DNA of 64,000 nucleotides. Source: an uncultured Lachnospiraceae bacterium (GTDB lineage Bacteria > Bacillota > Clostridia > Lachnospirales > Lachnospiraceae). Positions 44,387 through 62,427 of the stretch are shown piece by piece. Under the pieces are notes generated by a model. The model saw nothing but the letters and a program-made list of their open reading frames with translations, was not told where the DNA came from and did not search any database. A program made the position numbers and the translations under genes. How positions within the stretch are numbered: position 1 is the first letter of the stretch; every line of letters begins with the position of its first letter. The stretch lies in the NCBI GenBank assembly GCA_949840805.1, contig CATKXR010000010.1, forward strand, positions 1 to 64,000, read 5' to 3'.

Positions 44387-44409
44387 AAAAAATACTCCTT
44401 TAAATCTGG

Positions 44410-45210: not shown

Positions 45211-45218
45211 TTTGTTCG

Positions 45219-46370: not shown

Positions 46371-46423
46371 CCATTTTTCACCTCTTTTATATTTTCCTGC
46401 TTAATTCACATAAGGTTTTTTTG

Positions 46424-46759
46424 TTACAGAACATATAGAAAAATACCTGATATAATGAAAAGCAATGCAACAACCTTTTTAACACTTATCTTCTCTCCAA
46501 ATATAGTAACCCCAAATATGGTAACAAACAGATAAGAAACTGTTTCCAAAATAGCCCCAAGCCCAAGAGCAATTTTCCGATATGCAAATATACTCATCAA
46601 GGTACACAGAAACATCATACAATATGCCGTTAACACCTTTCCATTGATATATTCCTGAATAAGCTTCTCATGCTTCTGCGATGCCGATTTTTTCAGCAAC
46701 ACCTGGGCAGTTGATGCCATAAATACGGATGTTAAAAACAAGCATATACTTTCAGCCAT
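46424..46759 (-). CDS. EamA/SMR-like half transporter 1
   Basis: A 111-residue protein with four transmembrane helices, of the SMR/ArnE-ArnF size class. The ATG at 46759 follows GAGGAG. Together with the next gene it likely forms a heterodimer, perhaps flipping an undecaprenyl-linked sugar. Confidence 0.8.
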   Translation of the reverse strand: MAESICLFLTSVFMASTAQVLLKKSASQKHEKLIQEYINGKVLTAYCMMFLCTLMSIFAYRKIALGLGAILETVSYLFVTIFGVTIFGEKISVKKVVALLFIISGIFLYVL

Positions 46760-46792
46760 ACTGCTACTCCTCATCCCGGTCTTCTTCTATTC

Positions 46793-47149
46793 TCAATCTG
46801 AAAAAGAAAAATATACAATACCACCCGCGATCACAATAGTCGCAATTACTTGACGAACAGAAACCGGATCACGATATAAAAAATGTCCAAACAGCATTCC
46901 CCAAATTATAGTTGCTGCACGAGATGCATATGCACTGGTCAATGGCAATCTCTTAATTACCTGTTGCCATCCGGCAGCATAAATTCCCATACACAAAAAA
47001 ATCCCAAAATAAGCCATTAGAAATTCTATACTCAGACAGTCATAACCAGATGCCTTCTTGCCCAACATTGCACTAACTGCATACAGGAAAATAAGAAAAT
47101 GCAGCAAAATATACCACTTAATCTCCCACTTTTTCTTGATCCTGCCCAT
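46793..47149 (-). CDS. EamA/SMR-like half transporter 2
   Basis: A 118-residue, four-helix protein similar in layout to its neighbour. Paired half-size EamA proteins such as ArnE and ArnF are known for lipid-linked aminosugar translocation; the link here is by analogy and by position between sugar genes. Confidence 0.78.
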   Translation of the reverse strand: MGRIKKKWEIKWYILLHFLIFLYAVSAMLGKKASGYDCLSIEFLMAYFGIFLCMGIYAAGWQQVIKRLPLTSAYASRAATIIWGMLFGHFLYRDPVSVRQVIATIVIAGGIVYFSFSD

Positions 47150-47166
47150 TCTTTTTCACCACCAAA

Positions 47167-47696
47167 TCAATCCTCCACTGCATTCCTATTCCTCTTTCTA
47201 ACTACCTTCGCAGGTATTCCCACAGCAACAGACCATGCAGGAATATCATGTGTTACTACACTACCTGCCCCTATCACTACTCCATCGTTTATCGTAACTC
47301 CCTGCAAAATAATACTTTTTCCACCAATCCAGCAATCATTTCCAACTTTTATCTTTCCATATGTGTCTCTTAACCATATATCGTCAGGGTCATGTCCTGC
47401 TGCAAAAAAGCACACTTCCGGGCCGATTGCAACATGATTTCCAATTGTAATATGCTCTCTCTCTTTTGAATGTAAAGATGCGTAAAATCTGCATCCCCTG
47501 TTTACTGTCACATGTTTTCCTAAAAATATGTGTTTTGGATATCGGAAATATGTTTCATAATCTATATAACTCCCCCCCCGCACGAACCAAGAAGTCCTTT
47601 AAAGCAGATTTTCCTTATCAAAGGGGGAGTTATATCAAGCAAACAATAAACAATCTTAAAGATCCAATTATATATGGAAAAAAGCCACATTTTCAT
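47167..47696 (-). CDS. Left-handed beta-helix acyltransferase, frameshifted at a G8 tract (OFF)
   Basis: The hexapeptide-repeat acyltransferase ([20 protein letters not shown], then [16 protein letters not shown]) resembles sugar O-acetyltransferases of the WcaF/CatB type. AAAGGGG lies 6-8 nt before the ATG at 47696, and that frame runs as far as LLGSCGGG, then shifts and stops at the G8 tract 47572-47579. The rest of the enzyme ([20 protein letters not shown] onward) is in the next frame. One more G gives a 176-residue protein of normal family length. Only a GTG at 47583 could start the 3' part as it stands, with no proper ribosome site. Confidence 0.85.
47572..47579 (-). repeat. G8 tract in the acyltransferase gene
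   Basis: Eight G on the coding strand. The full-length frame needs nine (or six). A 13-bp inverted repeat (47564-47576 and 47623-47635 approximately) surrounds it. Confidence 0.9.
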
Positions 47697-47709
47697 AGGT
47701 TATCCCCTT

Positions 47710-48441
47710 TCAATCGATTGGACAGTGCTTTACAAATACATAATAAATTTTATAGACGCTATATCCTAAATTTGTATGTATATTTAATGCTGGCTGATTG
47801 TTTGTCGAAACAGCACCTTCAATTTCACTTGCACCGAGTTTCGCTGATTCTTGAAACATACAAAAATGTGGATAGATTCCCAACCCTTTTCCTGTATATT
47901 TTTGATACAAGCCGCTCAAAAGATATTTACATACTTTTTGTTCTGGTTTTCGTAACATTGAAAAACCAATTTTTTCATCCCGATATATAATTTTATAAAT
48001 TTGTGTATTTTGTTCAATCTCCTGCCAAATCCATCCTTTATATCGATCATATGCTTGTTGTGCTGAGAAATATGGATCAATACAAACCCGGTCTGTCATA
48101 AAAATGCCAGAGTCAATCTCCTGCATGCATTTAGAAATATCTGCCATGGACATAACTTCATAGCTTATCTTATCATATAGCTTTTCTTCAATTGTTTTGA
48201 GTACCGGAATTTCCAGTTTCCTCCGAAATTTTATTAATGTCTCAACAAACGTGTATCCGAGGCCACAGAGTAGCTGATTTATATCCATTCTGCAAACAGG
48301 AACTTTTACCACCGTATAATCGGTTTCATACTTTGACAATTCCTTTTCCATGTTTTCTGTCATGTCATTATTTTCAATCTCTATTTCCCAGCAATTAACA
48401 CCCATATTTCTTTTTTCCCATTCGGCATGTATTCCAATCAC
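47710..48441 (-). CDS. WecD-like sugar N-acetyltransferase (GNAT fold)
   Basis: The 243-residue protein has a GNAT C-terminal half (GLYQKYTGKGLGIYPHFCMF, with EIEGAVSTNNQPALNIHTNL) and the RYKGWI segment of dTDP-fucosamine acetyltransferase WecD/RffC. It would acetylate a 4-amino-4,6-dideoxy-hexose made by the WecE aminotransferase nearby. The GTG start overlaps the stop of the glycosyltransferase gene by 4 nt and follows GGGAGG. Confidence 0.82.
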   Translation of the reverse strand: MIGIHAEWEKRNMGVNCWEIEIENNDMTENMEKELSKYETDYTVVKVPVCRMDINQLLCGLGYTFVETLIKFRRKLEIPVLKTIEEKLYDKISYEVMSMADISKCMQEIDSGIFMTDRVCIDPYFSAQQAYDRYKGWIWQEIEQNTQIYKIIYRDEKIGFSMLRKPEQKVCKYLLSGLYQKYTGKGLGIYPHFCMFQESAKLGASEIEGAVSTNNQPALNIHTNLGYSVYKIYYVFVKHCPID

Positions 48442-49412
48442 CTGGTATCCTCCCTCATATGTTTCCCGCCATCCTTTATATTCACCGTATTTCTAATTAC
48501 ATATTGAGGCGCATTATTAATACAAATAAAAATTCTGCCAATGTATTCCCCAATCAATCCAAGCATTAGCATAATTAATCCACTAGAAAACAGCAGGACA
48601 GCCATGATGGAACTATATCCTACCGCTATCTCTGAATCTACAAGCTTTCTAATAACAACATAAATCCCATAAAGAAAACCACCTGCTGAAAACAAAAATC
48701 CAATCATAGTTGCCACTCTCAGTGGTTTAACCGAAAAAGATATAAAACCATTTAAAAATAAAGAAAAGGATTTCCAAAATGTAAATCCCGTAGTATTATC
48801 GTCTGCCCTGTTTCTGCCTTCCATTTCAACTGCCATCACCCTGTCAGTGACCTGAAGAAATAACCCTTCCAAAAATGGATAGGGATTTTTATAATAAATC
48901 ACTTGGTCGCAAACAAATCTTTTTATTACACTGAAATTTTCAAATCTCAGCCCTTTTGGCTTTTTTAGCATAATTTCAGAAATCATCAGGTTGACATGGC
49001 TTCCCATTCTTTTCCAAAGCAGTTCCTTTTTGGAATAATACTGGGCTGTTGCTATATCACATTCATCATGAAAAACCGGATCTGCCAATTTCCATAATTC
49101 ATATATCGGACATTGATAGTCATCATCAAGATTTACAACAAAATGTCCTCTCACTACAGAATAACCAGCCAATACGGCCGCATGTTTTCCCATATTTTTT
49201 GCCAGGTTGACAATCTTAATTTTATGATTATCAGATGCTAATTTGCATAATACTCTATAAACATGATCCGGAGATGCATCATTTACAGCGATTATCTCAT
49301 AATCATACCCTTCTCTTTCACCTACTACATCTATAATTTCTTCAATAACCTTTCCGATTGTATATTCACTACGATAACAAGGGATAACAAAGCTTAACAA
49401 GATATTCTCCAT
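48438..49412 (-). CDS. Family 2 glycosyltransferase with C-terminal membrane helices
   Basis: The 324-residue protein has a GT2 A-fold (FVIPCYRSEYTIGKVIEEI; VNLDDDYQCP as the metal motif) and two C-terminal transmembrane segments, as in DPM1/ArnC/GtrB, enzymes that make polyprenyl-phosphate sugars. AAGGAG sets the ATG at 49412. It could supply the lipid-linked sugar for the half transporters. Confidence 0.9.
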   Translation of the reverse strand: MENILLSFVIPCYRSEYTIGKVIEEIIDVVGEREGYDYEIIAVNDASPDHVYRVLCKLASDNHKIKIVNLAKNMGKHAAVLAGYSVVRGHFVVNLDDDYQCPIYELWKLADPVFHDECDIATAQYYSKKELLWKRMGSHVNLMISEIMLKKPKGLRFENFSVIKRFVCDQVIYYKNPYPFLEGLFLQVTDRVMAVEMEGRNRADDNTTGFTFWKSFSLFLNGFISFSVKPLRVATMIGFLFSAGGFLYGIYVVIRKLVDSEIAVGYSSIMAVLLFSSGLIMLMLGLIGEYIGRIFICINNAPQYVIRNTVNIKDGGKHMREDTR

Positions 49413-49424
49413 AATTGCCACTCC

Positions 49425-50560
49425 TTACCTTGTTTCAAGAAAAAACGCTTTCAGACAGCTAATAATTTTCTCCTGATCCGTTTCAGACAATCCATAATAT
49501 AACGGCAATCGAACAAGTCTTTCACTTTCCTTAGTCGTATATTTGTCTGTCCCGAAAAATCTTCCAAATTTCTTTCCAGCAGGAGATGTATGGAGCGGTA
49601 TGTAATGAAATACCGTACTTATCTCATTTTGATTCATGTGATTTATAAACTTTGTCCGTTCTTCAATATCACGAAGCTTTATATAATACAAATGTCCATT
49701 ATGCACACATTCATCCGGAATATATGGAACCGAAAAGAATCCGCAATCTGCAATTGGTTTTAATTCGTTTTCATATTGATGCCATATTTTTCGTCTTGCT
49801 GAATTTATTTCATCAGCCTTAATAAGCTGCGCCCACAGATAAGCTGCATTCAGCTCTGATGGCAGATAGCTGTCCCCAAAGTCTACCCATGTATATTTAT
49901 CCACTTGTCCCCGATAAAATTTTGACCGGTTTGTCCCCTTTTCACGAAGTATTTCTGCTTTTTCGTTGTATATGGGGCTATTTATAGCAATACCCCCCCC
50001 TCGCCCATAGAGTAGTTTTTAGTCTCATGAAAGCTATAGCATCCAAAATCCCCAATTGTACCCAATGATTTTCCTTTATATGTGCTCATAACCCCCTGGG
50101 CTGCATCCTCAACCACCATTAGCTTATGCCGTTTTGCTATATCCATAATAGTGTCCATTTCACAGGCCACTCCTGCATAGTGCATGACAATAATTACTTT
50201 GGTTCTGCTTGTAACAGCATCTTCAATCAATGTTTCATCTATATTCATGGTATCCGGACGAATATCCACAAATACCAGTTTTGCACCTGCCAGAACAGGC
50301 GCTGTGGCCGTGCTGGAAAATGTATAGGAGGGAAGAATCACCTCATCTCCTGGCTTTAAATCACATAATAGAAGAGCCATATCCAATGCAGTTGTCCCAC
50401 TTGTTGTCAATAATACTTTTTGTGCATGAAATTTATTTTCAAGCCATCTGCTGCATCTTTTTGTAAATGGCCCATCTCCGCTTATTCTGTGATTATGAAT
50501 CGCTTCCTGAATAAAATCACTTTCATTGCCAATATAAGGCGGTACATTAAACGCTATCAC
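49425..50560 (-). CDS. wecE: WecE-type dTDP-4-keto-6-deoxyhexose aminotransferase, frameshifted at a G8 tract (OFF)
   Basis: Two frames together make a complete DegT/WecE enzyme. The first (to 49982) carries SGTTALDMALLL and the PLP lysine of FHETKNYSMGEGG (about 181), then stops in VLL. The second (49425-49904 and upstream) starts mid-protein with VDKYTWVDFGDSYLPSELNA. At the G8 tract 49993-50000, a ninth G gives EGGGIAINSPIYNEKAEILR and a 378-residue protein, the usual WecE length. As written the enzyme would lack its C-terminal half and be inactive. Confidence 0.88.
49993..50000 (-). repeat. G8 tract in wecE
   Basis: Eight G on the coding strand where nine (or six) restore the frame. Confidence 0.92.
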
Positions 50561-50575
50561 TGTTTTTATTCCTCT

Positions 50576-52048
50576 TTACTCTATCAGATTTGAATCTTTA
50601 TGTAATTGTGCACTATTTTTATGATAATACTTTGCGATCGATTTATTCGCCCAGTAATCCGGATCCGGCGTCAAGCCTACTCCTCTCATTGTATCAAAAT
50701 GATCATATTCTTTTACCACAATATATACATCTGATGAAGAATCATTTTCCAAAGTATTTAATATCTTCATACTTGTATCATAAAAACATGAAGCCTTCCC
50801 ATATGCCAAATCAAAATATAATTTTAATGGTTTCTGCTCGATCCATGAATTAGGATACCCCCAATTGAAAGCTGCAATCATACAACACAAAATCATTATA
50901 GTCTTTAAATTTTTATTAAAAGACAACTCATATCTTTCACATAAATATCCGGCTGCATATATGATCATTACCGGACAAAATAGATAGACAGCTAGTTTTG
51001 CAACAAATTCCGAACGTCCATTAAATTCATCTGATGCATACCCAAAGCAAACAGGAAAATTTACAATAAAAAGCGAAAATAAACAGTAAAAACACACGAG
51101 TAATGGATGATTAAATTTTATTTTTATTCTCTTAACCACATGATTCATAAAAAGAAGTGCAACTATAAAAACAACTAACAAAGTACCTTCTGCTACTTGA
51201 TCTCCAAAAATTTTAAATGTATTCTTAAGAGTATAAAAAAGAATTTTTATGATCTTATAATTTCCATTATACGAATTATGCCTTAAATAATTGCCTGGCG
51301 CCAAAACATTAATCAAGGTGCCTGAAAAACCTGAAAAAAATACAATTGCCAGACCTTTTATCGGACTCATATGTATGAACGCAAATAATATCATTCCTAA
51401 ATATGCAGCACAAATCAAAGCGCTTATATTGATAGAACCTCCGCATGATAAAAAGCAAAATATACATGATAATATGATTAAATATAATTTATTTGAATAC
51501 CGGATATAAAACATCAACAATATAAAGGAAAGAAAAAATAATAAAAGAGAAACCGTATAGCCCCCACTCCCTGTACACCAATAGAACGCATCTGCAATAT
51601 ATGTATTATTGAGAAATCCAAATAGAATCAAATCAAAAATCAAAAGGCCAAAAATATCTGTTCTTGAGTCACTATTTTCTATCAAATACCTCCAAAAGCA
51701 TAAAAAAGAAGTAAAAAAAGAACCAAAAAACAAAATAGAAATGAAAAACAATTCTATATGAAGACCATGAAATCCGAATTTCTGATAAATTTTAAGTTCA
51801 AAAAGTTCAGCAAATATCCCCGCAAAACCACCGCCCCAGTTATAATACATTTCCTTTGTACGGTTAATAGCTTTTTCCAGCCAGCTATCCCCCTCTGCAT
51901 GAAGCACGCCAAGCATATTACTAAAATCGTCTGCTCCGATTACAGAATAAAATGTAAGTATCGTAATTGGCAATACGATAACTATCATAATTAAAAACAG
52001 GCTTATTTTCATTATTTGTTCTTTTGTTGCTTTATATCTTTTTGGCAC
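50576..52048 (-). CDS. Multi-pass membrane protein, DUF6056-like (possible glycan polymerase or GT-C)
   Basis: A 490-residue protein with about ten to twelve transmembrane helices and an N-terminal loop containing DDF and a W-rich segment (YYNWGGGFAGI), as in DUF6056 and some GT-C glycosyltransferases. It may polymerise or glycosylate on the outer face. The GTG start at 52048 follows GGGAGG and lies directly after the FkbM stop codon. Confidence 0.6.
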   Translation of the reverse strand: MPKRYKATKEQIMKISLFLIMIVIVLPITILTFYSVIGADDFSNMLGVLHAEGDSWLEKAINRTKEMYYNWGGGFAGIFAELFELKIYQKFGFHGLHIELFFISILFFGSFFTSFLCFWRYLIENSDSRTDIFGLLIFDLILFGFLNNTYIADAFYWCTGSGGYTVSLLLFFLSFILLMFYIRYSNKLYLIILSCIFCFLSCGGSINISALICAAYLGMILFAFIHMSPIKGLAIVFFSGFSGTLINVLAPGNYLRHNSYNGNYKIIKILFYTLKNTFKIFGDQVAEGTLLVVFIVALLFMNHVVKRIKIKFNHPLLVCFYCLFSLFIVNFPVCFGYASDEFNGRSEFVAKLAVYLFCPVMIIYAAGYLCERYELSFNKNLKTIMILCCMIAAFNWGYPNSWIEQKPLKLYFDLAYGKASCFYDTSMKILNTLENDSSSDVYIVVKEYDHFDTMRGVGLTPDPDYWANKSIAKYYHKNSAQLHKDSNLIE

Positions 52049-52049
52049 A

Positions 52050-52778
52050 TCAAAAATCCTCCCTGTTTGTTCGTAAAAATGTAAATTCCTCCTGTTCTTT
52101 ACTTATATACACCATTTTATATCCATTATTTTCCAATGTGTGAATAAACTGCTTTAATATTCTTAGCGGATTTTTAAAAAATCTCTCATGAAGCTCAACA
52201 CATATCTGATCCGGATAGATTCCGCTTTTAATAAAATCAGGAATTACAGCAAACTCCGTACCTTCAATATCCATCTTCAACAGGTCGATATGACGGATAC
52301 CAAAGCCTTCCATAAGAGAAGATAGCCTCTTCATGGGAACCGATATTTCTCTTCCTGCTCCGCCGACTCCCGAATGCGCAACAGTGGAACATGATATATG
52401 GTGATCATTTTTCGGCATATAAAATGTCTGATATCCATCTCTGTCCGACAAACCTATCATTTCAAAATGAAAATTTTTAAACTTTTTTAGTTTTTCTGCA
52501 TATTTTTCGGCTTTAGGTGTTGGGTCAAATGCATACATGACACAATCCTTATATTTTTCAAGCAATTTTTCTTCAAATTGAATATTGTCACCAATTCCAA
52601 AAGAAAAAACAACAGCGTTTTCAGGAAGCTCTCCTACAATAGCATAAGAACTATACCCTCCCCCCCCATTATCATCAAATTTCTGAAGCTTGTATGTCCC
52701 CTTGTGAACCTTTGATTGTTTATATGGCCATAATAAGAATCGTAATCCATGAAACCAAATGACATTTATCCATTTCAT
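52050..52778 (-). CDS. FkbM-family methyltransferase with a G8 tract, in frame (ON)
   Basis: The 242-residue SAM-dependent methyltransferase shows VFSFGIGDNIQFEEKLLEKY, MYAFDPTPKAEKYAE and LLKMDIEGTEFAVIPDF of the FkbM family, which methylates hydroxyls of sugars and other metabolites. GAGG lies 8 nt before the ATG at 52778. The G8 tract encodes the Gly run at residues 38-41 (DDNGGGGYSS) and is in frame; one more G would lead to a stop almost at once (codon about 43). Confidence 0.85.
   Translation of the reverse strand: MKWINVIWFHGLRFLLWPYKQSKVHKGTYKLQKFDDNGGGGYSSYAIVGELPENAVVFSFGIGDNIQFEEKLLEKYKDCVMYAFDPTPKAEKYAEKLKKFKNFHFEMIGLSDRDGYQTFYMPKNDHHISCSTVAHSGVGGAGREISVPMKRLSSLMEGFGIRHIDLLKMDIEGTEFAVIPDFIKSGIYPDQICVELHERFFKNPLRILKQFIHTLENNGYKMVYISKEQEEFTFLRTNREDF
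52660..52667 (-). repeat. G8 tract in the FkbM methyltransferase gene
   Basis: Eight G on the coding strand, in frame as written. Confidence 0.92.
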
Positions 52779-52818
52779 TGCAGCCACCTCTTATTTGTTT
52801 TTCATCTCTTTATTTTTC

Positions 52819-54042
52819 TTATGATGATTCTATTTTTATTTTTCTTGATAAAGATGAAATCATGTCATATCCATCCCAGGTAAGGCCAAAATCCATTGTA
52901 TGCCCAATATCCACGATTCGGTCTATTCCTTTGATTCCATACATAATTAAAGGCTTTATCCACCCCTTGTCACCGATCATTGCTATTGTCTGGCATTTAT
53001 TATCGTCTACTATTGGTATTAATTCCATTGCCTGGTCACAGTCATATTCATAAAAATAACCGCCGCTGTCTCTTATTTCCAATATAGAACGCCTTAACTC
53101 CGGCACTTGAATCCTCACAATCAGATTATCTTTTTGCTGTATAATCCTAGCCTCTTTTAAAGCTACCGCTGCCAGAAAGCTGCTTACCAATTTATCCACT
53201 CCCTGAATATCCTGGAATACATATTTTCTTTTAACCACCTCATATAATTGATTCCAGAACTCTGTTTTTGCCTTATCCTTATGATTTCCTGTCCATATGA
53301 CAATTCTTGGGCTTGTGCAGGCATTTTGGTCTGATAAATAGGTATCGTTATAAAAATTTTCTGCTACTCTCGCTTTATCATGGATGTCTATATAAACATC
53401 AGAATCTATAATTGACAAAGAATATCGGTCTGCAAAGGTTAATTCTGTACTTCTAGGAGGTAAAGGGGACTTCCGAAGTTCAGAGATGGTCTGATCTCCT
53501 CCCCATATAATTCGGACATCGCACAAATCAGAAAAAAAATCATTAATTATCTGGTCTCTTTCATATTGTGCTATTATAATATAGGGACGGATCTTTTCAT
53601 ATTGAAGCAAAACCTTATTTATGGAATCTAAAATCATTTTTGTCTGTGGATATAACTTTGTAGGAATGCGTACTATATTTCGATTTCCACTTAATAATCC
53701 GGACGCAAGGCTATATGCAAAATTAACTGGCACATTGGATGGTGTTATATGAAACGCAATCCCCCTTCCCAACCAAATATTTTCCAGTAAACTTTGCTCA
53801 TAAAGAAATCTCAGCCGATTTAAAGAACCTTTTCTAATCCAAAAAGCGAATGTAATAACATCTGGATACTTTCTGCTCATTGGATCATTAATAATCATTT
53901 TTGATAATGCATCAAGAAACTCTAATATTTCATTATCAAATGGTACTTTTGATGCAGTATCCAAAGTGTTTTTCATAATCTGGAGATTACCTGCCAAAAA
54001 TTTGACTCTATTTAAGATATCTGTTTCAATCTTCTTTTCCAT
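52819..54042 (-). CDS. LuxC-type acyl-CoA/acyl-protein reductase
   Basis: The 407-residue protein matches the LuxC family, which reduces an activated acyl group to an aldehyde with NADPH. The active-site Cys is in SDQNACTSPR (about 242), after a LuxC-type N-terminal half (GRGIAFHITPSNVPVNFAY). It follows LuxE by 48 bp. No luciferase subunits are present, so light is not the purpose. Confidence 0.88.
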   Translation of the reverse strand: MEKKIETDILNRVKFLAGNLQIMKNTLDTASKVPFDNEILEFLDALSKMIINDPMSRKYPDVITFAFWIRKGSLNRLRFLYEQSLLENIWLGRGIAFHITPSNVPVNFAYSLASGLLSGNRNIVRIPTKLYPQTKMILDSINKVLLQYEKIRPYIIIAQYERDQIINDFFSDLCDVRIIWGGDQTISELRKSPLPPRSTELTFADRYSLSIIDSDVYIDIHDKARVAENFYNDTYLSDQNACTSPRIVIWTGNHKDKAKTEFWNQLYEVVKRKYVFQDIQGVDKLVSSFLAAVALKEARIIQQKDNLIVRIQVPELRRSILEIRDSGGYFYEYDCDQAMELIPIVDDNKCQTIAMIGDKGWIKPLIMYGIKGIDRIVDIGHTMDFGLTWDGYDMISSLSRKIKIESS

Positions 54043-54090
54043 AGGTATCTATTTTTCTTTCTTATTCTTTTTTAGCTTAAAAAACATATA

Positions 54091-55188
54091 TTAATTCTTT
54101 TTGAATTGTTGCGCATAGGTATCACTGCATCCTCTGATCTCTGCATTTTTTAATCTTCCGATTATTTTAAAGTATTTTCCTTTTCTCCCACATGGACAGT
54201 CATCTATCCCTTCTAAAATGCCTTCATCCTCAGTTAAAAGGCTATGTCCCGGATAGGATTCCGGAATGGTAGATACCACTTGTAAGATACCTTTTTCTCC
54301 TGTACCACATGGTTTAAAATCAATCGGACGTCTCATGATCACATCAGAAAATATGCTGGTATGTAAATGCCCCCATTCACATTCCATATAGATACATCCA
54401 GTCTGTTCAACCATTCCATAATAATCATGAAAATCATCCAGACCACATAGTTCTCGAAGCCTGCCATGAAATTCGTCCCGACTGACCGCTTCGTCTCTTA
54501 ATTTCTTCCATCCGCCGCCATGTATCAAAAATCCATTAGATAAATCAATCGTAACCCCTTTATCTTTCAGTTTCCTCAGTTCTTTATAAAAATGCTGCCA
54601 TATTATAAAGGTAAAACCAAATAATAAAATTTTCTCACCATTATGTCGGGTTAGAAATTCTTGTATCTCCTCTAAATTTAATTCCATACTATTATTCAAT
54701 GCATATATTTTTTCCTTTCCGAAAACAGAAAATCCTAATATTCCTGCTCCTCTTGCACTAAACATGACCCTGTTTTTTATTACATTTGGACAATCAATGA
54801 TAATCATTGGCATTCGTGCAGATCCGGTAAAATCCGATACAATCTTAACCATTGTTTTCTGCTGATTTGCAGATGTTACCCGATCCAAATAGATTTTACT
54901 TACCTCCTGGCCTGTTGTGCCAGATGATGTCATGGTTTTTACAATATCTTTTTGAGGTATAGATTTTAATTCTAATTTTTTAAAGAGTCTTACTGGTAAA
55001 AATGGCAAATCCATATAGGATTCACATTTTTCAATGTCAAAACCGATAGCATCTAAGATAGTCTTGTACTCCTGGCAGTTTTTCTGATGCAGCATGGTCA
55101 GTTCCATCATCCGTTCGGTAAGCAATGCTTCTTTTCTTTCCTTATCTAATGAATATGGCGGAATTTCTAATATTTTTTCAAATATCAT
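54091..55188 (-). CDS. LuxE-type acyl-protein synthetase
   Basis: This protein of about 365 residues belongs to the LuxE branch of acyl-AMP-forming enzymes (MTSSGTTGQEVSKIYLD is the nucleotide loop; YYGMVEQTG the second). LuxE activates a carboxylic acid and hands the acyl group to LuxC. I chose the ATG at 55188, which has AAGGAAAG just upstream and yields the usual IFEKILEIPPYSL start. It belongs to the acyl module with the ligase, ACP and thioesterase. Confidence 0.85.
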   Translation of the reverse strand: MIFEKILEIPPYSLDKERKEALLTERMMELTMLHQKNCQEYKTILDAIGFDIEKCESYMDLPFLPVRLFKKLELKSIPQKDIVKTMTSSGTTGQEVSKIYLDRVTSANQQKTMVKIVSDFTGSARMPMIIIDCPNVIKNRVMFSARGAGILGFSVFGKEKIYALNNSMELNLEEIQEFLTRHNGEKILLFGFTFIIWQHFYKELRKLKDKGVTIDLSNGFLIHGGGWKKLRDEAVSRDEFHGRLRELCGLDDFHDYYGMVEQTGCIYMECEWGHLHTSIFSDVIMRRPIDFKPCGTGEKGILQVVSTIPESYPGHSLLTEDEGILEGIDDCPCGRKGKYFKIIGRLKNAEIRGCSDTYAQQFKKN

Positions 55189-55222
55189 TTTTCTTTCCTT
55201 CATTGTCTTTTTATTCTGCTTT

Positions 55223-55924
55223 TTATGTTGTTGCACTACATAGCTTTTTATTAATAATATCTGCTATTTTTTTATAATCTTCAAAAATGAAAAAATGATT
55301 ATCCCCTATCTCATAAAAATCAACCATGCCTTTCGAAAGCCTTGACCATCCTTTAACTCTTTCATAAGGCATATCCTGTTTACTGTAAATTACTGTTGTA
55401 TCACAAGGGATCATAGAACCCTCTTTATATTGGAACTGCGATAACAACCTATAATCTTCCCGGATTGGTTTCATATAAATAGACAAAAATTTCGGATTAG
55501 CCGCAATACGCTTATCAATACCTCCCAGACTTATCATTTTTTTAGAAAAATCCTCATCAGATAATAAATGATAAGAATAACTCAATCCTTTTTGATAAAC
55601 CGCATCCCGGGCACATATAAATACATGGACAGGCTTTTTTTCCATCGTATTTCTGGAAATGAGATCAAAAGCGAGATTACCACCCATACTATAACCCAAA
55701 ATACTGTATGGAAGATGAACCTGATTCCCGCTTATTTGTTTTTCCACATCAGCTAACATACTTTGATAATCCTGGTAAAAGCTTTCTCGTTTCCGATTTC
55801 CATGCCCGGCATATTCCAGCACCATTGTCTCTATTCTTTTATCAATACAAGGAATAAGTTTATCAAATGCTGATGCATTCCCGCCTGCAAATGGAAGAAT
55901 AAAAAGCTGTATCATCTTACTCAT
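55223..55924 (-). CDS. Type II thioesterase (GrsT-like)
   Basis: The 233-residue alpha/beta hydrolase has the LFILPFAGGNASAF start, the nucleophile elbow GYSMGGNLAF (Ser about 79) and a late GDNHFFIF with the catalytic His. Type II thioesterases remove wrong acyl groups from carrier proteins in NRPS and PKS systems. The ATG at 55924 overlaps the end of the ligase gene by 8 nt. It suggests that the ACP nearby carries acyl groups that need editing. Confidence 0.88.
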   Translation of the reverse strand: MSKMIQLFILPFAGGNASAFDKLIPCIDKRIETMVLEYAGHGNRKRESFYQDYQSMLADVEKQISGNQVHLPYSILGYSMGGNLAFDLISRNTMEKKPVHVFICARDAVYQKGLSYSYHLLSDEDFSKKMISLGGIDKRIAANPKFLSIYMKPIREDYRLLSQFQYKEGSMIPCDTTVIYSKQDMPYERVKGWSRLSKGMVDFYEIGDNHFFIFEDYKKIADIINKKLCSATT

Positions 55925-57350
55925 AATACGTTTCCAATTCCTGATACCGTATCTTTCCAGCATCATTTTTGGGTATTTCCTCTATTAAAATCACCTTAAA
56001 TGCTACAGGATTTAATTTTGTTATTCGCACAACATAATCTTTCACAATGCTTTTCATCTCATTATCAACCAGAAAAATATACATATGGTCATCAGTCCCG
56101 GCACAAGCCACATCAATTTCGTACTTTCCTTTTATTAAACGCTCCACCTCATCAAGGTTTACCCGATTTCCATATATTTTTAAAAAACGCTTCTTACGCC
56201 CTACAATATAAAAATATCCATCCTCGTCAAATTGAGCCATATCCCCCGTAAACAGAATACCTTTTCTTTCATCCCCTTTTATAAGATCTTCCCCACATTC
56301 CGCATAGCCAAGTGTAACGTTCTTTCCTTCATACACAAGCTCGCCCGTAATATTTGGTACAGTTATCTCTGTATAGTCCGCATCTATCAGTCTAAACTTT
56401 CCTCCTGGTATGGCAATTCCCATTGATCCTCTTTTTTCTACTGCTTTATCCGCCGGTAAATAGCCCATCCGGGCTGTAGCCTCACATTGGCCATACATAA
56501 CCACAAAATTTCTGCTGTTTTCTGCAGCATACCTGGCAAATTTCTCATGAAGTTCCAGAGTGAGTTTTCCTCCTGCCTGTGTCATTGTTCGAAGAGATGG
56601 TAATTCCATTTGAAAAAAGCGCAGTCTATCAAGAATCTCATAAGTATAGGGAACGCCTCCAAAAGAGGTTGCCTGATGCTCTTTAAAAAAAGTCCAGAAT
56701 TCCTTTTGCGTTAATCCTTTATCCGTGAGTAAGATTGTAGCACCCACAAATAAATGGCTATTAATAATTGACAAACCATATGTATAATTCATTGGAAGTG
56801 TGGTAATCGGACGTTCTGTTTCATCGATCCCTAAATATTGCACAATACTTTCCGTATTAGCACGAATATTTTCATACGATTGCCGTACAAACTTTGGACT
56901 CCCAGTAGATCCAGAAGTTGTAAGCAAAAGAGCCAGTTTCTCATATAGCAAATAATTTTTATGAAAATCCGTTCGCAATAATACATAATCATACTTTCTG
57001 TAAACAGCCTCAAAATTTTCATAAAATCCAGCCTGTTTAAAAGGAACCCAAAGATAGGAAGGACTATATATTTTTATTAAATGATCCAACAGTTCCTGTT
57101 CAATATGGCTGTTTAATAAAACCGGAACAATTCTGTGTTCCACAAATCCAACATATCCAAACAAGGAACCGATACTGTTTTCGCAAAGAATAAAAACAAG
57201 ACATCTTTCTTGAAATATCTTTGCCATTTCATCTGCTCCAGCATCCAATTCTGAATATGTTAAAATTACTCCATTCTCATCCCTTACTGCAATGTGATCA
57301 CCAAAACGTGCAAAATTCCACATAGTATCCCTGCCCATATTTCCGTCCAT
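55917..57350 (-). CDS. AMP-dependent acyl ligase
   Basis: The 477-residue adenylate-forming enzyme has the core LLTTSGSTGSPKFVRQSY (about 142-159), FTGDMAQFDEDGYFYIVGR and the C-terminal DAGKIRY lysine. It would activate a carboxylic acid and load it on the adjacent ACP. The start is ambiguous among Met 1, 5 and 10. It lies 29 bp after the ACP gene. Confidence 0.88.
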   Translation of the reverse strand: MDGNMGRDTMWNFARFGDHIAVRDENGVILTYSELDAGADEMAKIFQERCLVFILCENSIGSLFGYVGFVEHRIVPVLLNSHIEQELLDHLIKIYSPSYLWVPFKQAGFYENFEAVYRKYDYVLLRTDFHKNYLLYEKLALLLTTSGSTGSPKFVRQSYENIRANTESIVQYLGIDETERPITTLPMNYTYGLSIINSHLFVGATILLTDKGLTQKEFWTFFKEHQATSFGGVPYTYEILDRLRFFQMELPSLRTMTQAGGKLTLELHEKFARYAAENSRNFVVMYGQCEATARMGYLPADKAVEKRGSMGIAIPGGKFRLIDADYTEITVPNITGELVYEGKNVTLGYAECGEDLIKGDERKGILFTGDMAQFDEDGYFYIVGRKKRFLKIYGNRVNLDEVERLIKGKYEIDVACAGTDDHMYIFLVDNEMKSIVKDYVVRITKLNPVAFKVILIEEIPKNDAGKIRYQELETYYE

Positions 57351-57379
57351 AACGGACTTGATTTAATAGATTCTAAATT

Positions 57380-57619
57380 TCAAAACTTTATCTGATAATG
57401 TTCTGCAAGTATTTTCTTTCCTCTTTCAAATGACTCAAAATCAATAATATCATCTGCATCCATATCAATTCCAAATGTTTCTTCCACTTCACTGATTAAT
57501 GTCATATGACCTACTGAATCCCATGCTTCAATATCCTGATACTGAAGTTTTTCTGCCTTTTCCGCGCTGATTTCAAATAATCTTGTAAAGATTCCTGTAT
57601 ATTTTTCTAAATTGGTCAT
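57380..57619 (-). CDS. Acyl carrier protein
   Basis: The 79-residue protein has the phosphopantetheine motif DSVGHM (Ser 35) and the helix IDMDADDIIDFESF. It is a stand-alone carrier, not the fatty acid synthase ACP by context. It would hold the acyl group activated by the ligase. Confidence 0.92.
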   Translation of the reverse strand: MTNLEKYTGIFTRLFEISAEKAEKLQYQDIEAWDSVGHMTLISEVEETFGIDMDADDIIDFESFERGKKILAEHYQIKF

Positions 57620-57639
57620 TTTCTTGTTCCTTTCTTCTT

Positions 57640-58671
57640 TTACTCAATATCATCTATTGTAATTAATGTATCTGCTTCTATGTCTTTTATTGCTGTCTTT
57701 CCTATCAATTTATCCATTTGATCAGGACTTATTCCTGTTCCTGGCCGTTTGGCATATAGATCATCTTCTGTTATTCTGTGCCCTTTCTGAATATCGACTG
57801 CTGCTATAATACTCCTTCTCATATTCTGACGCTGTTCCAATTCTTCTGCTGTCACAATACGTTCTTTTACCCCCATTGCAAGCTGAACATCTCTGCATTT
57901 TTTTATGAGCTTTTTAAAATCTTCCGGTTCCGTCGCCATGCCATTATCCATTCCTACTTTAGAGCGGTCTAGTGTCAGATGTTTCTCTATCATGCCGGAA
58001 CCTAAAGCTATAGCAGCGATTGACGCCTCATCACCTTCCGTATGATCAGAAAATCCAATTGGATAAGCTGGAAAATTTTCCCGCAATCCAACAATATTAT
58101 TCAGATTCACTGTTGTAAGAACCGTTGGATAAATTGACACACAATGAAGAATAACCAGTTGAGATACTCCTGCATTTTCCAAAATATTTACTGCCCTTTT
58201 CACCTCATCTATGCTGCTCATTCCTGTAGACAAAACAACAGGTATCTTTCTGCTTCCAATATATCGAAGAAAGCGAAGATTATTCATTTCCATTGACGCA
58301 ACCTTTACATAGGGAACATCACATTCCTGTATAAGAAAATCCACTTCTTCTTCAGAATAAGGTGTAGAAGAGAATGCAATGCCTTGTTTGACACTATAAT
58401 CTGCAAGTTCTTTTAATTGTTCAGGAATTAATGACATTTTTTTTACAATCTTCTGGCTTATAGGGTTTCTATTATAATAACTTTTAGAATACAGGCTCTT
58501 TGCAGACCATGATTGAAATTTTACACAATCGCATCCAATCTCTGCCGCAACACGAATCATTTGTTTTGCTGTTTCCATATTTCCTTTATGGCTGCTGTTT
58601 ACCTCTGCTACAATATATGGCTTACCGTAATCATACACCTGTATTCCATCACGAAATATACATTTTGCCAT
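57640..58671 (-). CDS. NeuB-family nonulosonate synthase
   Basis: The 343-residue enzyme of the NeuB/PseI/LegI family condenses an aldose with phosphoenolpyruvate. It has YIVAEVNSSHKGNMETAK, the barrel segments SSTPYSEEEVDFL and HCVSIYP, and a C-terminal SAF (antifreeze-like) domain (RRSIIAAVDIQKGHRITEDD). No CMP-sugar synthetase is in the window. It lies 2 bp after the TPP enzyme gene. Confidence 0.9.
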   Translation of the reverse strand: MAKCIFRDGIQVYDYGKPYIVAEVNSSHKGNMETAKQMIRVAAEIGCDCVKFQSWSAKSLYSKSYYNRNPISQKIVKKMSLIPEQLKELADYSVKQGIAFSSTPYSEEEVDFLIQECDVPYVKVASMEMNNLRFLRYIGSRKIPVVLSTGMSSIDEVKRAVNILENAGVSQLVILHCVSIYPTVLTTVNLNNIVGLRENFPAYPIGFSDHTEGDEASIAAIALGSGMIEKHLTLDRSKVGMDNGMATEPEDFKKLIKKCRDVQLAMGVKERIVTAEELEQRQNMRRSIIAAVDIQKGHRITEDDLYAKRPGTGISPDQMDKLIGKTAIKDIEADTLITIDDIE

Positions 58672-58673
58672 CT

Positions 58674-60470
58674 CTACTCCTCCATCATTTTCACAAGCAT
58701 TTCTGCCTGTATCACCTCTCTTTCAAGGAAGGGAGCCATATCCTCAATTGGTCTGTGGACTAGCTTTTTCCTTTCATTTACCTCATAGGATTCGTGCAGA
58801 TATTTTTGTTCTGGTGTACAGCAAACTTCAATAATTTCTGTTATATTGTCTTCCAATAATTGCTCTTTGTATTTTTCCAATTCAAGTCTGTTACTTACTT
58901 TCCTATATGGTAGTCCAAAGCTCTCTGCTATCCTCTTAAAATCAGGGACAGAAACCCCATCAGACGGATCATTTCCTATGGTTCTTTTTCGAAATAAATC
59001 TTTCTGGCGCTTCCTGATAACCGCATACATATTATTACTTATTACAAATAATTTTACTGGAATATGAAAGGAACTTATCACCTGAAGCTCCTGCATATTC
59101 ATCATAAAGGAACCATCTCCTACCACACAGATAATATTTTTTCTTCCGCTGTAAAATGCACCAAGAATTGCAGGTATTGCATATCCCATTGCTCCTTGTG
59201 ATGCAGGAAACAGACATCTCTGCCCTTCTTTAAATCGAATTGTAGACGGAATAATCAATTCCTCAAATCCTGCGTCCGTTATTACTGTTGCATCATCTGA
59301 AATCCAATCTGATAACATATCTGCCACCTGATAAAGATCCAGTATATTGCATTTTATTAGCTCTTGAATAAATTTTTCTTTTTGAATTGAAAATGTTTCC
59401 TTCCAGGCCATACACTTTTCTGCCCATGCGCGACTAGTCGTGGAAAAATTCTGATTCGCTAGTACAGTCAAGAATTCCTTTGCATCAGCATTTATCACTC
59501 TGTCAATATGTACGCCTTTTTTTGTATGCTCTTTTTTGTCAATATCTACAACTATAATTTTTGCCTCTCTTGCAAATGCATTCTTCATCCCGGTTTCCTG
59601 GGAACAAAGCTTAGTGCCGACTGCAAGAATATAATCGGCATTCTGGACAGCAAAATTCCCTGCCCGTGTTCCTCCAAGGCTTCCTACTGCCCCTATTGAT
59701 AATGCATGTCCTGCCCCATAAATATCTGATGCTGCTGGTGAAAAAGCAAGGGGAATCTGGTATTTTTCTATCAATTTTTTCACTTCATCTGCTGCATCTC
59801 TGACCCCGCCACCTATTAGCAAAACGGGCCGTCTTGCGTGGTTAAATTCCTCTGCTATTATTTCTGCTGAATTTTGTAAATCCTTTTGCAAAGATTCACT
59901 GTCTTTGCCTGGCTCCATAAAATGTTCCAGTTTTTCTTCTTCTATTCTCATATTCTGTACATCTAATGGCACATCAATCCAGACAGGTCCTTTTCTGCCA
60001 TTTTGTGCATAAAACAATGCTTTTTCCACTTCAAGAACCACCTGGTCAGCATATTCCAGCATAACTGCGTATTTGGTGACAGATTCCACAATTTTTACTA
60101 TGTCTACTTCCTGTGAGCCATATGTCCTTATTGGAACATTTGTATGTCTTGTATTCTCCTGCAAAAAATTATTTCCTGATATAAAAACAACCGGAAGATT
60201 ATCTTGATATGCACATAAAGCAGCAGTAACTGCATTTGATGCCGCGCATCCAGAAGACACAAGGCATGCGGATATTCCCCCATTAGACAACGCATAGGCC
60301 ATTGCCGCATAGGACGCTCCCTGCTCATGATATGTGGATATATGTTTTATATTTTGATTTCGTGCAACGGCATCTGTCAGGTATAAGATCCCTCTGCCTG
60401 TAATCATAAAAATATGTCCTGCCCCTGTTTCCCTTACCTTTCGAATAATATAATCAGCTACCCGTTCCAT
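58674..60470 (-). CDS. Thiamine diphosphate enzyme (acetolactate synthase-like)
   Basis: The 598-residue enzyme has the three-domain layout of acetolactate synthase: an N-terminal Pyr domain with the activating Glu (STYHEQGAS, about 49), a central Rossmann domain (VLLIGGGVRDAADEVKK), and a PP domain with GDGSFMMNMQEL and NN. The substrate is not known. In this place it could transfer a C2 unit from pyruvate to an aldehyde or sugar, as in branched-sugar synthesis by YerE-type enzymes. It starts one base after the expected end of the FabZ-like gene 1. Confidence 0.85.
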   Translation of the reverse strand: MERVADYIIRKVRETGAGHIFMITGRGILYLTDAVARNQNIKHISTYHEQGASYAAMAYALSNGGISACLVSSGCAASNAVTAALCAYQDNLPVVFISGNNFLQENTRHTNVPIRTYGSQEVDIVKIVESVTKYAVMLEYADQVVLEVEKALFYAQNGRKGPVWIDVPLDVQNMRIEEEKLEHFMEPGKDSESLQKDLQNSAEIIAEEFNHARRPVLLIGGGVRDAADEVKKLIEKYQIPLAFSPAASDIYGAGHALSIGAVGSLGGTRAGNFAVQNADYILAVGTKLCSQETGMKNAFAREAKIIVVDIDKKEHTKKGVHIDRVINADAKEFLTVLANQNFSTTSRAWAEKCMAWKETFSIQKEKFIQELIKCNILDLYQVADMLSDWISDDATVITDAGFEELIIPSTIRFKEGQRCLFPASQGAMGYAIPAILGAFYSGRKNIICVVGDGSFMMNMQELQVISSFHIPVKLFVISNNMYAVIRKRQKDLFRKRTIGNDPSDGVSVPDFKRIAESFGLPYRKVSNRLELEKYKEQLLEDNITEIIEVCCTPEQKYLHESYEVNERKKLVHRPIEDMAPFLEREVIQAEMLVKMMEE

Positions 60471-60471
60471 T

Positions 60472-60959
60472 TCATGTCCTTCCTGTCAATTTCCCTTTAG
60501 GTGCTAGAGATGTAATAATTTCCGGTATTCCAATCACATAATCCGCTTTACATGAAAGCCCGCCATCTACAATTCCCTCAGCATGCCCGGAAAATACCCC
60601 CCCCGCGCATTTTTCAGATATGCCTCTATATCCATACGTTCACCAGGTATGATTTTTCTTTTAAACTCCACATGGTCAATTTTTAAACAGGCTGTGTGTT
60701 TCTTTCTATATTCTGGTTTTGTCAGAAATGTCATCAGCATCATCTGGGAGAGTGCCTCCAGCATAACAGAACTTGGAACGTTAGGATCATCTTCAAAATG
60801 TGCTGGAAAAAACCACTCATTATATGTGAAATTTTTATATCCTTTTGCATATTTCCCCGGCATCACTTCCTTTACATAATCGATCATTAATACTGGATAT
60901 TTGCAGTTATGATATTCCATAATGTGATGAACATTCAAATCCCTCATTATTTCTATCAT
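60472..60959 (-). CDS. FabZ-like hotdog dehydratase 1, frameshifted at a G8 tract (OFF)
   Basis: The frame starting at 60959 codes for a hotdog protein (VMPGKYAKGYKNFTYNEWF, PAHFEDDPNVPSSVMLEALSQ) and runs into the G8 tract 60597-60604, then stops after YFPGMLREL. With a ninth G it continues ARGGVFSGHAEGIVDGGLSC, aligns with the C-terminus of its neighbour, and ends at 60472, one base before the TPP enzyme gene: 162 residues. The PG positions of the active-site loop are changed (EDDPNVPSS), although the His is kept. Confidence 0.85.
60597..60604 (-). repeat. G8 tract in FabZ-like gene 1
   Basis: Eight G on the coding strand where nine (or six) restore the frame. Confidence 0.92.
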
Positions 60960-61456
60960 TCTATAGATCCTTTCCTCTTGTTTGGCCTGAATTTGTTAAA
61001 CACATCAGGAATGATAATCGTGGTCTCCAGCCTGCAGGCCAATTCTCCATCAATATACCCACATACTGTTCCCTTACACAGCCCTCTTTTAAAATATTGG
61101 ATTTCCGCACTCATTTCTAATTTGTCACCTGGCCTTACCTCTTTATAGAAAGTTCCCGCATGCTGGTACCCATGCACAATTTTTCCTTCCATTCCTTCCA
61201 TTGTGGTAATGGCCACGGTCAGCATTTGTGCCATTGCCTCAATCTGTAAACATCCGGGCATATTAGGATCTCCTGGAAAATGGGATGGAAAATACCATTC
61301 ATTATTAGTAAGGTTTTTAAATCCCTTTGCATATTTTCCCGGCATCACTTCCGTAATACGATCGATCATTAAAAATGGGAACCGGTTAGGCTGATATTTT
61401 TTTAATTCTTCCCCAGTCAATGAAAATGGGATATTTTTTTCCTTATCTTTTTTCAT
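60956..61456 (-). CDS. FabZ-like hotdog dehydratase 2
   Basis: A 166-residue 3-hydroxyacyl-ACP dehydratase-like protein with the active-site His and loop HFPGDPNMPGCL and the Glu of IEAMAQM, as in FabZ. GGAGG precedes the ATG. It overlaps the next gene (ATGA). The pair of paralogues may form a heterodimer acting on the acyl-ACP of this locus. Confidence 0.9.
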   Translation of the reverse strand: MKKDKEKNIPFSLTGEELKKYQPNRFPFLMIDRITEVMPGKYAKGFKNLTNNEWYFPSHFPGDPNMPGCLQIEAMAQMLTVAITTMEGMEGKIVHGYQHAGTFYKEVRPGDKLEMSAEIQYFKRGLCKGTVCGYIDGELACRLETTIIIPDVFNKFRPNKRKGSIE

Positions 61457-61491
61457 TCCTTATTTTCCTCCATCGATTTTTCCACAATGCC

Positions 61492-62427
61492 TTACGATCC
61501 TCTTAATTTTGTTTTATGCCATAATAAGAACTTTCCATGTTCAATAGCAAAGTTTCCCGCTACCCTTCCTCCTTCCTTTATATTATTAACTACAACTGAA
61601 CCAAGATCTATCACGGCATTGTCATGAACCTTCATCCGGTTTGATATAATTGATTTTGGATTCAATCTGACATAATCACCTAAAACGGCATTTCCACAGA
61701 TATGGCTTTGCCCTGTAATAATGCAATTCTTCCCCACCTTGGAATTGTGGGATATTTCGACACCATTCTCAACTTTCGAATATTCCCCTATTTCGGTAGA
61801 TTCATAAGGAAAAGAACCTTTAGCGATAGTCGTATTGCATCCAATTGACACATTATCATGCAGGAACAGCTTTCCCACCTGTTTCACAAGAAACAGATTT
61901 CCGTCCTGACCTTGCACAACAATATGGGAGGGACACCCGATTATGGATCCTGTCCCTATTTCAACATTATTTCCTATAATTGTTCCTGAACGAATAACAA
62001 CATTTTCTTCGATGATACAGTTACTTCCGATTTTAACTCCATATTCTGCAATGTTTGCTCGTTGATGGATTATGTTCTTTTCCCCTATTATGGTTTTTTC
62101 ATAGAAATTTACATAATCTGGTTCATTTGTAGCAAACCAGTTATGAAAAGCATTAAAAGAACTTCTGGGACTTTTTGCTATCGCTATCCCCTTTCCAGAA
62201 TTCACAAGAATCTCATTTGATGACAACTCTTTTGTACAAATAATACAAGAAATGTCATTTTTTAAACACGCTCTCTTTAAATATTTTTCATTTTCGGCAT
62301 AACTCACGTAAGGCTGTTGGGGATCACTAGCATAATTTCCTAATGTAGCAAATACTCCATCCCTTGTTGTAAGATAATATTTTCCATCATAATCTGATAA
62401 ACGGAATAATTTTTCCTTTAATATCAT
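61492..62427 (-). CDS. LpxD-like left-handed beta-helix acyltransferase
   Basis: The 311-residue protein has an N-terminal domain of about 100 residues and hexapeptide repeats (IGSNCIIEENVVIRSGTIIG, then GSIIGCPSH) as in LpxD, which transfers 3-hydroxyacyl groups from ACP to a UDP-sugar amine. In a Gram-positive genome this suggests a dedicated N-acyltransferase for an aminosugar, fed by the neighbouring ACP module. It overlaps the oxidoreductase gene by 4 nt. Confidence 0.8.
   Translation of the reverse strand: MILKEKLFRLSDYDGKYYLTTRDGVFATLGNYASDPQQPYVSYAENEKYLKRACLKNDISCIICTKELSSNEILVNSGKGIAIAKSPRSSFNAFHNWFATNEPDYVNFYEKTIIGEKNIIHQRANIAEYGVKIGSNCIIEENVVIRSGTIIGNNVEIGTGSIIGCPSHIVVQGQDGNLFLVKQVGKLFLHDNVSIGCNTTIAKGSFPYESTEIGEYSKVENGVEISHNSKVGKNCIITGQSHICGNAVLGDYVRLNPKSIISNRMKVHDNAVIDLGSVVVNNIKEGGRVAGNFAIEHGKFLLWHKTKLRGS

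Follow-up and report, generated by a model that had tools for sequence, protein, structure and literature searches.

In a stretch of 64,000 bases from an uncultured Lachnospiraceae bacterium (contig CATKXR010000010.1; hereafter the window), four genes of what appears, from the families of its proteins, to be a surface-glycan locus each carry a run of eight G residues on the coding strand, and three of these genes are split at the run. The locus therefore raises the question of whether the four G8 tracts are simple-sequence contingency switches, as had been proposed in an earlier reading of the letters alone (the sequence-only reading), or whether the splits stem from miscounted homopolymers, mark dead genes or are bridged by frameshifting during expression. 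We consider it very likely that the window tracts reflect phase variation, by slipped-strand mispairing, of genes that tailor a surface glycan. The phenomenon is wider than these four tracts and also takes in promoter-spacer runs and sensor and regulator genes.

Three of the four genes are split at the G8 tract

Runs of eight C, that is, G8 on the coding minus strand, occur four times on the plus strand of the window, and its 64,000 bases contain no other run of G or C longer than six; the positions given in the sequence-only reading (Table 1) were thus reproduced exactly. That reading had three of the genes broken at the tract and the fourth in frame. Proteins of intact relatives were compared with the window as separate pieces, before and after each run. 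Six relatives of the DegT-family aminotransferase (375–379 amino acids) each give two matches: one frame covers residue 1 to about residue 186 or slightly beyond and stops at the run or shortly after it, and a second frame, downstream, covers residue 186 to 363–374; the 375-residue protein of locus L046 is among the relatives collinear with both pieces. Five of six relatives of the FabA-like dehydratase (open reading frames, ORFs, of 154–198 amino acids; L027, L025, L021, L028 and L081) match one frame up to the run and another beyond it, and the sixth (L014) matches before the run only. As for the hexapeptide acyltransferase, residues 41–167 of a 170-residue relative (L233) match from position 47571 on, after the run, and for its first 38 residues a different frame of the pre-run sequence scores best (70, compared with 20 and 21 for the remaining frames).

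Matches to the relatives' proteins thus change frame at all three runs, as the sequence-only reading had it, and the fit of these proteins to both pieces indicates that intact copies of all three split genes exist elsewhere. No further lesion relative to the intact relatives was found in the DegT or FabA-like pieces. The FkbM-type methyltransferase gene reads through its run without a break, again as claimed; its relatives are few and distant (5 of 299 family genomes, its own included) and match from the run onwards only, so that the approximately 41 codons upstream of the run have no relative's confirmation. The only other match to the locus within its own genome is 72 bases long, indicating that this genome has no second copy of the locus with a different tract length.

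Table 1. Tracts, gene pieces and surrounding genes in the window
Feature	Coordinates	Strand	Remarks
G8 tract, hexapeptide-repeat acyltransferase gene	47572..47579	-	near codon 40; gene split at tract
Downstream piece, hexapeptide acyltransferase	47167..47583	-	138-residue open frame; PF00132 5.5e-12
G8 tract, DegT-family sugar aminotransferase gene	49993..50000	-	near codon 187; gene split at tract
Upstream piece, DegT aminotransferase	49982..50560	-	PF01041 positions 9-184
ORF inside downstream piece, DegT aminotransferase	49425..49904	-	PF01041 positions 216-359; relatives' match in that frame starts at about 50006
G8 tract, FkbM-type methyltransferase gene	52660..52667	-	near codon 41; frame open through tract
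FkbM-type methyltransferase, 245 residues	52050..52787	-	PF05050 3.7e-14
G8 tract, FabA-like dehydratase gene	60597..60604	-	last third of gene; gene split at tract
Upstream piece, FabA-like dehydratase, 130 residues	60567..60959	-	PF07977 1.1e-17
Minus-strand gene run around tracts	43238..63557	-	family matches of encoded proteins

Reading frames are randomised at long G runs and not at control runs

Frames were examined in loci of the genus, of which 24 species, with one genome each, were sampled. Ninety-four loci were chosen around runs of at least eight G in the genome of the window and of at least nine G in five of the 23 others (G003, G005, G010, G012 and G022), only part of the runs of these five being taken; since the loci were picked by long runs, length counts inside them are biased by design. 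In an open-frame test, each run was classed by the length of the open frame on either side, with a threshold of 60 codons. Of the runs of at least eight G, 40 of 64 were out of frame, as against 7 of 122 runs of at least eight A and 14 of 114 runs of six G. With thresholds of 40, 80 and 100 codons the long G runs gave 56/92, 29/51 and 22/40, and the fractions at all thresholds are compatible with two thirds (binomial p of 0.13 or more).

Since the open-frame test confuses gene junctions with splits, as seen with A runs, the frame test was rebuilt on homology: both halves of a gene had to find a collinear match, reaching to the run, in a single intact ORF from a different locus. Among 127 runs of at least eight G examined, 13 of the 24 that could be confirmed in this manner were out of frame. 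The controls behaved differently: 0 of 58 confirmed runs of at least eight A (179 examined), 0 of 203 runs of seven A (732 examined), 1 of 56 runs of six or seven G (182 examined) and 1 of 399 runs of five G (1,178 examined) were out of frame. The difference between long G and long A runs is highly significant (Fisher 5.6e-9), with the qualification that the confirmed cases include mutual orthologs and are thus not fully independent. The sole out-of-frame case among the runs of six or seven G is a run of seven. In these loci the frame effect sets in once runs reach about eight G, in keeping with a slippage mechanism, and ON and OFF frames are both present in near-random proportion by either test, as is expected of contingency loci.

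A further set of named loci was picked throughout by LuxE and is for that reason not the main control. Here the homology test put 0 of 80 runs of at least eight A, 1 of 326 runs of seven A, 1 of 70 runs of six or seven G and 61 of 449 runs of five G out of frame. Most of the 61 cases, located where the LuxE gene ends and matched to ORFs of 767–817 amino acids, are read as separate LuxE and LuxC genes set against fused ones. From the positions of the matches, the LuxE-type and LuxC-type genes are apparently fused into one ORF of this size in L048, L060, L063, L035 and others, and separate elsewhere.

These controls bear on assembly or sequencing error, under which the real runs would have a single length and miscounted homopolymers would account for the splits. 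The source is indeed a 152-contig draft, and it is the runs of at least eight G that are out of frame. However, runs of at least eight A are never out of frame by homology in either set of loci, and miscounting would not yield an excess of runs of nine or more, a placement between promoter boxes or a bias in gene class, all of which are described below. We regard this explanation as very unlikely; its variant, a platform error specific to G, retains some residual probability.

Orthologs differ in run length and are under purifying selection

In one gene family, runs in the same codon region are 10 G long and out of frame (L006), 11 G long and out of frame (L114) and 9 G long and in frame (L147); all three genes match an intact gene of L069 that has no long run there. 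Orthologs in other families have runs of 9, 10 and 9 G and of 9, 9 and 11 G, and one gene of the L005/L131 pair has an out-of-frame run in one species and an open frame in the other. Run length thus differs between orthologs, as it does at contingency loci, in families of the genus other than those of the four window tracts.

Four ortholog pairs could be measured upstream and downstream of the run (two L005/L131 genes, L006/L114 and L121/L185) and are under purifying selection, with nonsynonymous divergence (dN) of 0.07–0.22 and synonymous divergence (dS) from 0.86 to saturated. Pairs measured on one side agree (L123/L132, dN 0.08 and dS 0.68; L106/L122, 0.19 and 1.00); the five remaining pairs were too short to measure, and all pairs come from tracts of the genus other than the window's four. 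The genes are therefore otherwise intact and selected, judging from these four pairs and from pieces collinear with intact relatives, with the exception of the L001/L145/L150 family, whose run is only putatively coding.

The same measurements tell against fixed pseudogenes, that is, against the notion that the three split genes are dead and broken at G runs by chance. Such an explanation fits the observation that three of four window genes are split, and the L001/L145/L150 family lacks purifying selection on the side that was measured. On the other hand, the DegT and FabA-like pieces are free of further lesions, the breaks occur at long G runs and not at other homopolymers, and dN is well below dS on both sides in the four pairs, which include out-of-frame genes, albeit from other tracts. 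We therefore hold fixed pseudogenes to be most improbable. Assembly error and fixed pseudogenes were the two outcomes that the sequence-only reading had named as fatal to it; both are disfavoured by the genus-wide data, since the frame is randomised only at runs of about eight G or longer, runs of at least eight A stay in frame, selection is purifying in the pairs measured on both sides, and runs of differing lengths persist in several species at one codon region or in one promoter spacer.

Runs of nine or more G are in excess throughout the genus

Whole-genome counts from the 24 species provide an unbiased set of lengths. They contain 658 runs of exactly seven G, 136 of exactly eight and 219 of nine or more, compared with approximately 35 runs of nine or more expected from geometric decay between seven and eight; the tracts are thus longer than composition predicts, as contingency tracts should be. 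Runs of nine or more are present in 24 of 24 species and outnumber runs of exactly eight in 13 genomes; they do not in the other 11, which include the genome of the window. The number of runs of at least eight G ranges from 1 to 52 per genome.

Loss of mismatch repair is not supported as a cause: MutS1 scores above the cut-off in 23 of 24 genomes of the genus, the exception being 82% complete. A bias of the runs towards the sense strand was dropped as evidence because runs of five or six G show much of the same bias. Most runs stand singly; tight clusters of several G runs within 50–200 bases occur at G006:C122:9061-9109 and G003:C21:10008-10183. Two contigs of G022 (C66 and C67; L135 and L136) have approximately 109 bases in common (98% identical) around a run of 9 G in one and 11 G in the other, and diverge thereafter.

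In a sample of 250 genomes of the wider family, 153 contain runs of at least nine G, and genera differ widely. One family genome (G193; 1.6 Mb, 68% complete) has 126 such runs. Six stretches of it (L206–L211) contain 21 runs of at least eight G, all of them 8–9 long; 18 of these have 60 codons on either side, and the frame is kept in 15 and broken in 3, a pattern that looks unlike phase variation.

Some runs lie between promoter boxes

Among 164 runs in the genus and named loci, eight lie between −35 and −10 hexamers that together have 11–12 of 12 consensus letters, with a spacer of 15–22 bases, as in a poly-G promoter-spacer switch. Random positions, drawn from whole loci with their coding parts included, reached the same score in 12 of 8,200 cases, corresponding to 0.24 expected compared with 8 observed. 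The eight runs represent five distinct arrangements, one of which is kept in three species (L011, L144 and L183, with 9, 10 and 9 G) upstream of a gene for an HlyD/RND-type adaptor protein. The genes after the other promoter runs code for transglutaminase-like, FHA-domain and choline-binding-repeat proteins, and for two proteins without a Pfam match. None of the four window tracts reaches 11 of 12 letters as a promoter spacer. By position, then, the runs occur in reading frames or in promoters, where contingency tracts are found; their effect on expression is predicted.

Promoter-spacer runs also bear on transcriptional slippage or programmed frameshifting, by which out-of-frame alleles would yield some full-length protein with no switching at the DNA level. 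Long homopolymers are slippery sites, a point in favour of this explanation, but it accounts neither for runs between promoter boxes nor for the length differences between orthologs that keep to no one frame. It seems to us hardly plausible.

Run-bearing genes seem rich in decorating enzymes

Gene classes were compiled for 116 run-bearing genes or pieces, from which 34 of 149 runs had been dropped as having no sense piece of 60 codons and to which the hexapeptide piece of the window had been added by hand. They comprise 12 hexapeptide transferases, six Acyl_transf_3 and six Methyltransf_11 proteins, five group-1 and four family-2 glycosyltransferases, three formyltransferases, two MBOAT and two GtrII proteins. 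Two backgrounds of 116 genes each were counted by their top families, which for the random genes means the top 25, so that background counts are upper bounds. Random genes from three genomes of the genus include three group-1 glycosyltransferases and two matches to one methyltransferase model; neither hexapeptide nor Acyl_transf_3 proteins are among their top 25 families, in which the lowest count is 2. Neighbour genes in the run-bearing loci include four family-2 glycosyltransferases and three each of GT11, MatE and Polysacc_synt, and their top families contain no hexapeptide proteins. The hexapeptide excess over random genes (12/116 compared with at most 2/116) has a Fisher value of 0.01, uncorrected for the number of families, and an NCBIfam scan of the same 116 genes repeated it in many overlapping models. 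Since the excess holds over both random and neighbour genes, the runs seem to favour decorating over backbone enzymes.

The genome and locus around the tracts

The genome of the window (5.0 Mb, 152 contigs) has 22 runs of at least eight G, namely 11 of eight, seven of nine, three of ten and one of eleven, and 50 runs of exactly seven. At this density, which includes the four window tracts, at least four runs in a stretch of 13.8 kb picked post hoc have a Poisson probability of 5e-7, so that the clustering of the four exceeds chance. The other 18 runs fall in genes for two hexapeptide transferases, a methyltransferase, an AMP-binding enzyme, two histidine-kinase-type proteins and a PRD regulator; a further run directly follows a YheO-like regulator gene, five are in or next to pieces without a Pfam match, two are in promoters (L008 and L011), and no gene is assigned to those of L001, L012 and L013. 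The G8 run at L013:8889-8896 is flanked by short arms complementary to each other (CCCTCAGTGTA / TACACTGAGGG), as though an intergenic hairpin had the run in its loop. Of the 22 runs, 20 are on the minus strand of their contigs, compared with an even distribution (27 and 23) for runs of seven. This excess is odd, as contig orientation should be arbitrary, and clustering of the runs accounts for part of it.

The minus-strand genes around the tracts encode an NTP transferase, LicD, two DegT aminotransferases, GT2, DUF6056, LuxC, LuxE, a thioesterase, an AMP-ligase, NeuB, a TPP enzyme, two FabA-like dehydratases, two hexapeptide proteins and a GFO/IDH/MocA oxidoreductase, together with two small EamA-like proteins and a carrier protein (PP-binding) whose matches fall below the Pfam cut-offs. 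From these families, the gene run would build a surface glycan. An Rfam scan of the window found no family at gathering score. In the named loci with LuxE-type genes, tracts sit in different genes and share no common site. Two such loci, in records titled Treponema bryantii (L017:5365) and Candidatus Rikenella (L090:4120), have G runs of 11 and 9, respectively, which suggests either cross-phylum transfer of such loci or mislabelled records.

Discussion

Genus-wide frames, run lengths, selection and promoter placement all support the phase variation put forward in the sequence-only reading. During replication, a run would gain or lose G units by slipped-strand mispairing, which would shift the codons after it into or out of frame. 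In the window, expression or truncation of the acyltransferase, the amino-sugar aminotransferase, the methyltransferase and the acyl dehydratase would then be random and reversible for each gene, and with four switches one surface glycan could have as many as 16 decoration states. At other loci of the genus, where the run lies between −35 and −10 boxes, a change in length would tune transcription. We infer the slippage rate and its reversibility, as well as the coexistence of states in a clone and the glycan phenotype.

Several observations weigh against phase variation. Length variation within a clone would have to be read from single assemblies, one genome per species. Homology confirmed neither state for 103 of the 127 long G runs in the genus loci. 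Taken alone, the genome of the window gives a weak open-frame result, with 4 of 8 long G runs and 5 of 22 runs of at least eight A out of frame, some at least of these five looking like gene junctions; in the named loci only 3 of 9 long G runs (open-frame test) or 1 of 4 (homology test) are out of frame. The window tracts, at 8 G, are at the short end of the range. In the comparison with related genomes that the sequence-only reading had proposed, lengths differ across species at kept sites, and none of the 11 loci that align at the DNA level with the DegT tract has a long G run there. In the out-of-frame L005 gene, the run is followed by a T and two more G, and L131 lacks that T, so that the difference in this pair is not purely one of run length. 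In the L001/L145/L150 family (11–12 G), measured on one side only, no purifying selection is seen in the chosen frames (dN/dS of 0.14/0.19, 0.35/0.42 and 0.03/0). Finally, a looser promoter score (9 of 12 letters or better) gives a smaller excess, 16/164 compared with 155/3,280 random positions.

Neutral coding runs of glycine without switching deserve next to no credence, since the near-random frames largely refute them genus-wide, even if the mostly in-frame runs of G193 illustrate that frequent long runs need not be switches and the in-frame FkbM run taken alone could still be of this kind.

Slipped-strand switching at G runs has well-studied counterparts. Campylobacter jejuni has several poly-G runs in one locus. 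Its cgtB gene, for a glycan-building enzyme, is described as switching on and off through a poly-G tract of 8 or 9, a growing population containing both lengths, and many such genes are said there to act on surface glycans (PMC6437147); the passages of that paper that touch on Lachnospiraceae mention them only as a taxon with changed abundance. The likeness lies in a run of G8 length inside a glycan enzyme gene; the difference is that the present organisms are presumed Gram-positive gut commensals known from genomes alone. Phase variation by simple sequence repeats in Neisseria includes poly-G between the −35 and −10 boxes (porA, opc type). There, as here, a G run serves as a spacer between near-consensus boxes; Neisseria belongs to a different phylum, and only homopolymeric G was analysed in the present work, from sequence alone. 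A genome-wide set of switches is a further likeness; in Neisseria it numbers 115 genes (PMC5084427). Orsi et al. (2010; PMC2831843) present homopolymeric tracts as a general regulatory mechanism, with a genome-scale argument from coding homopolymers that resembles ours; in the main text 'Clostridia' appears once, in a list of sampled groups, 'Firmicutes' and 'poly-G' do not appear, and the experimental passage concerns a poly(A) tract in Listeria.

The capsules of gut Bacteroides resemble the present loci, as interpreted here, in that a gut commensal switches its surface glycans at random. In Bacteroides this is phase variation by invertible promoters, that is, DNA inversion by recombinases and not slippage, and it is mainly from these promoters that surface-glycan switching in gut commensals is known. 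Bacteroides capsule switching is cited in PMC13121745. In the open-access literature (subscription papers and preprints being outside its scope), no title or abstract start was found to report poly-G phase variation in Lachnospiraceae. The mechanism is thus of a known kind, in a setting for which the open-access literature yielded no report.

Taken across the genus, the runs likely constitute a poly-G 'phasome' in gut Lachnospiraceae, made up of glycan-tailoring enzymes, sensors, regulators and promoters of secreted or membrane proteins, whose states would be combined at random in each cell, with surface diversification like that of Campylobacter. Such diversification would probably be directed against phages and host antibodies. 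If this is true, catalogues built on single genomes misread many Lachnospiraceae glycan genes as broken, a strain can gain or lose sensitivity to phages and antibodies in the absence of lateral transfer, and switch states at hundreds of sites can be mined from existing metagenome reads.

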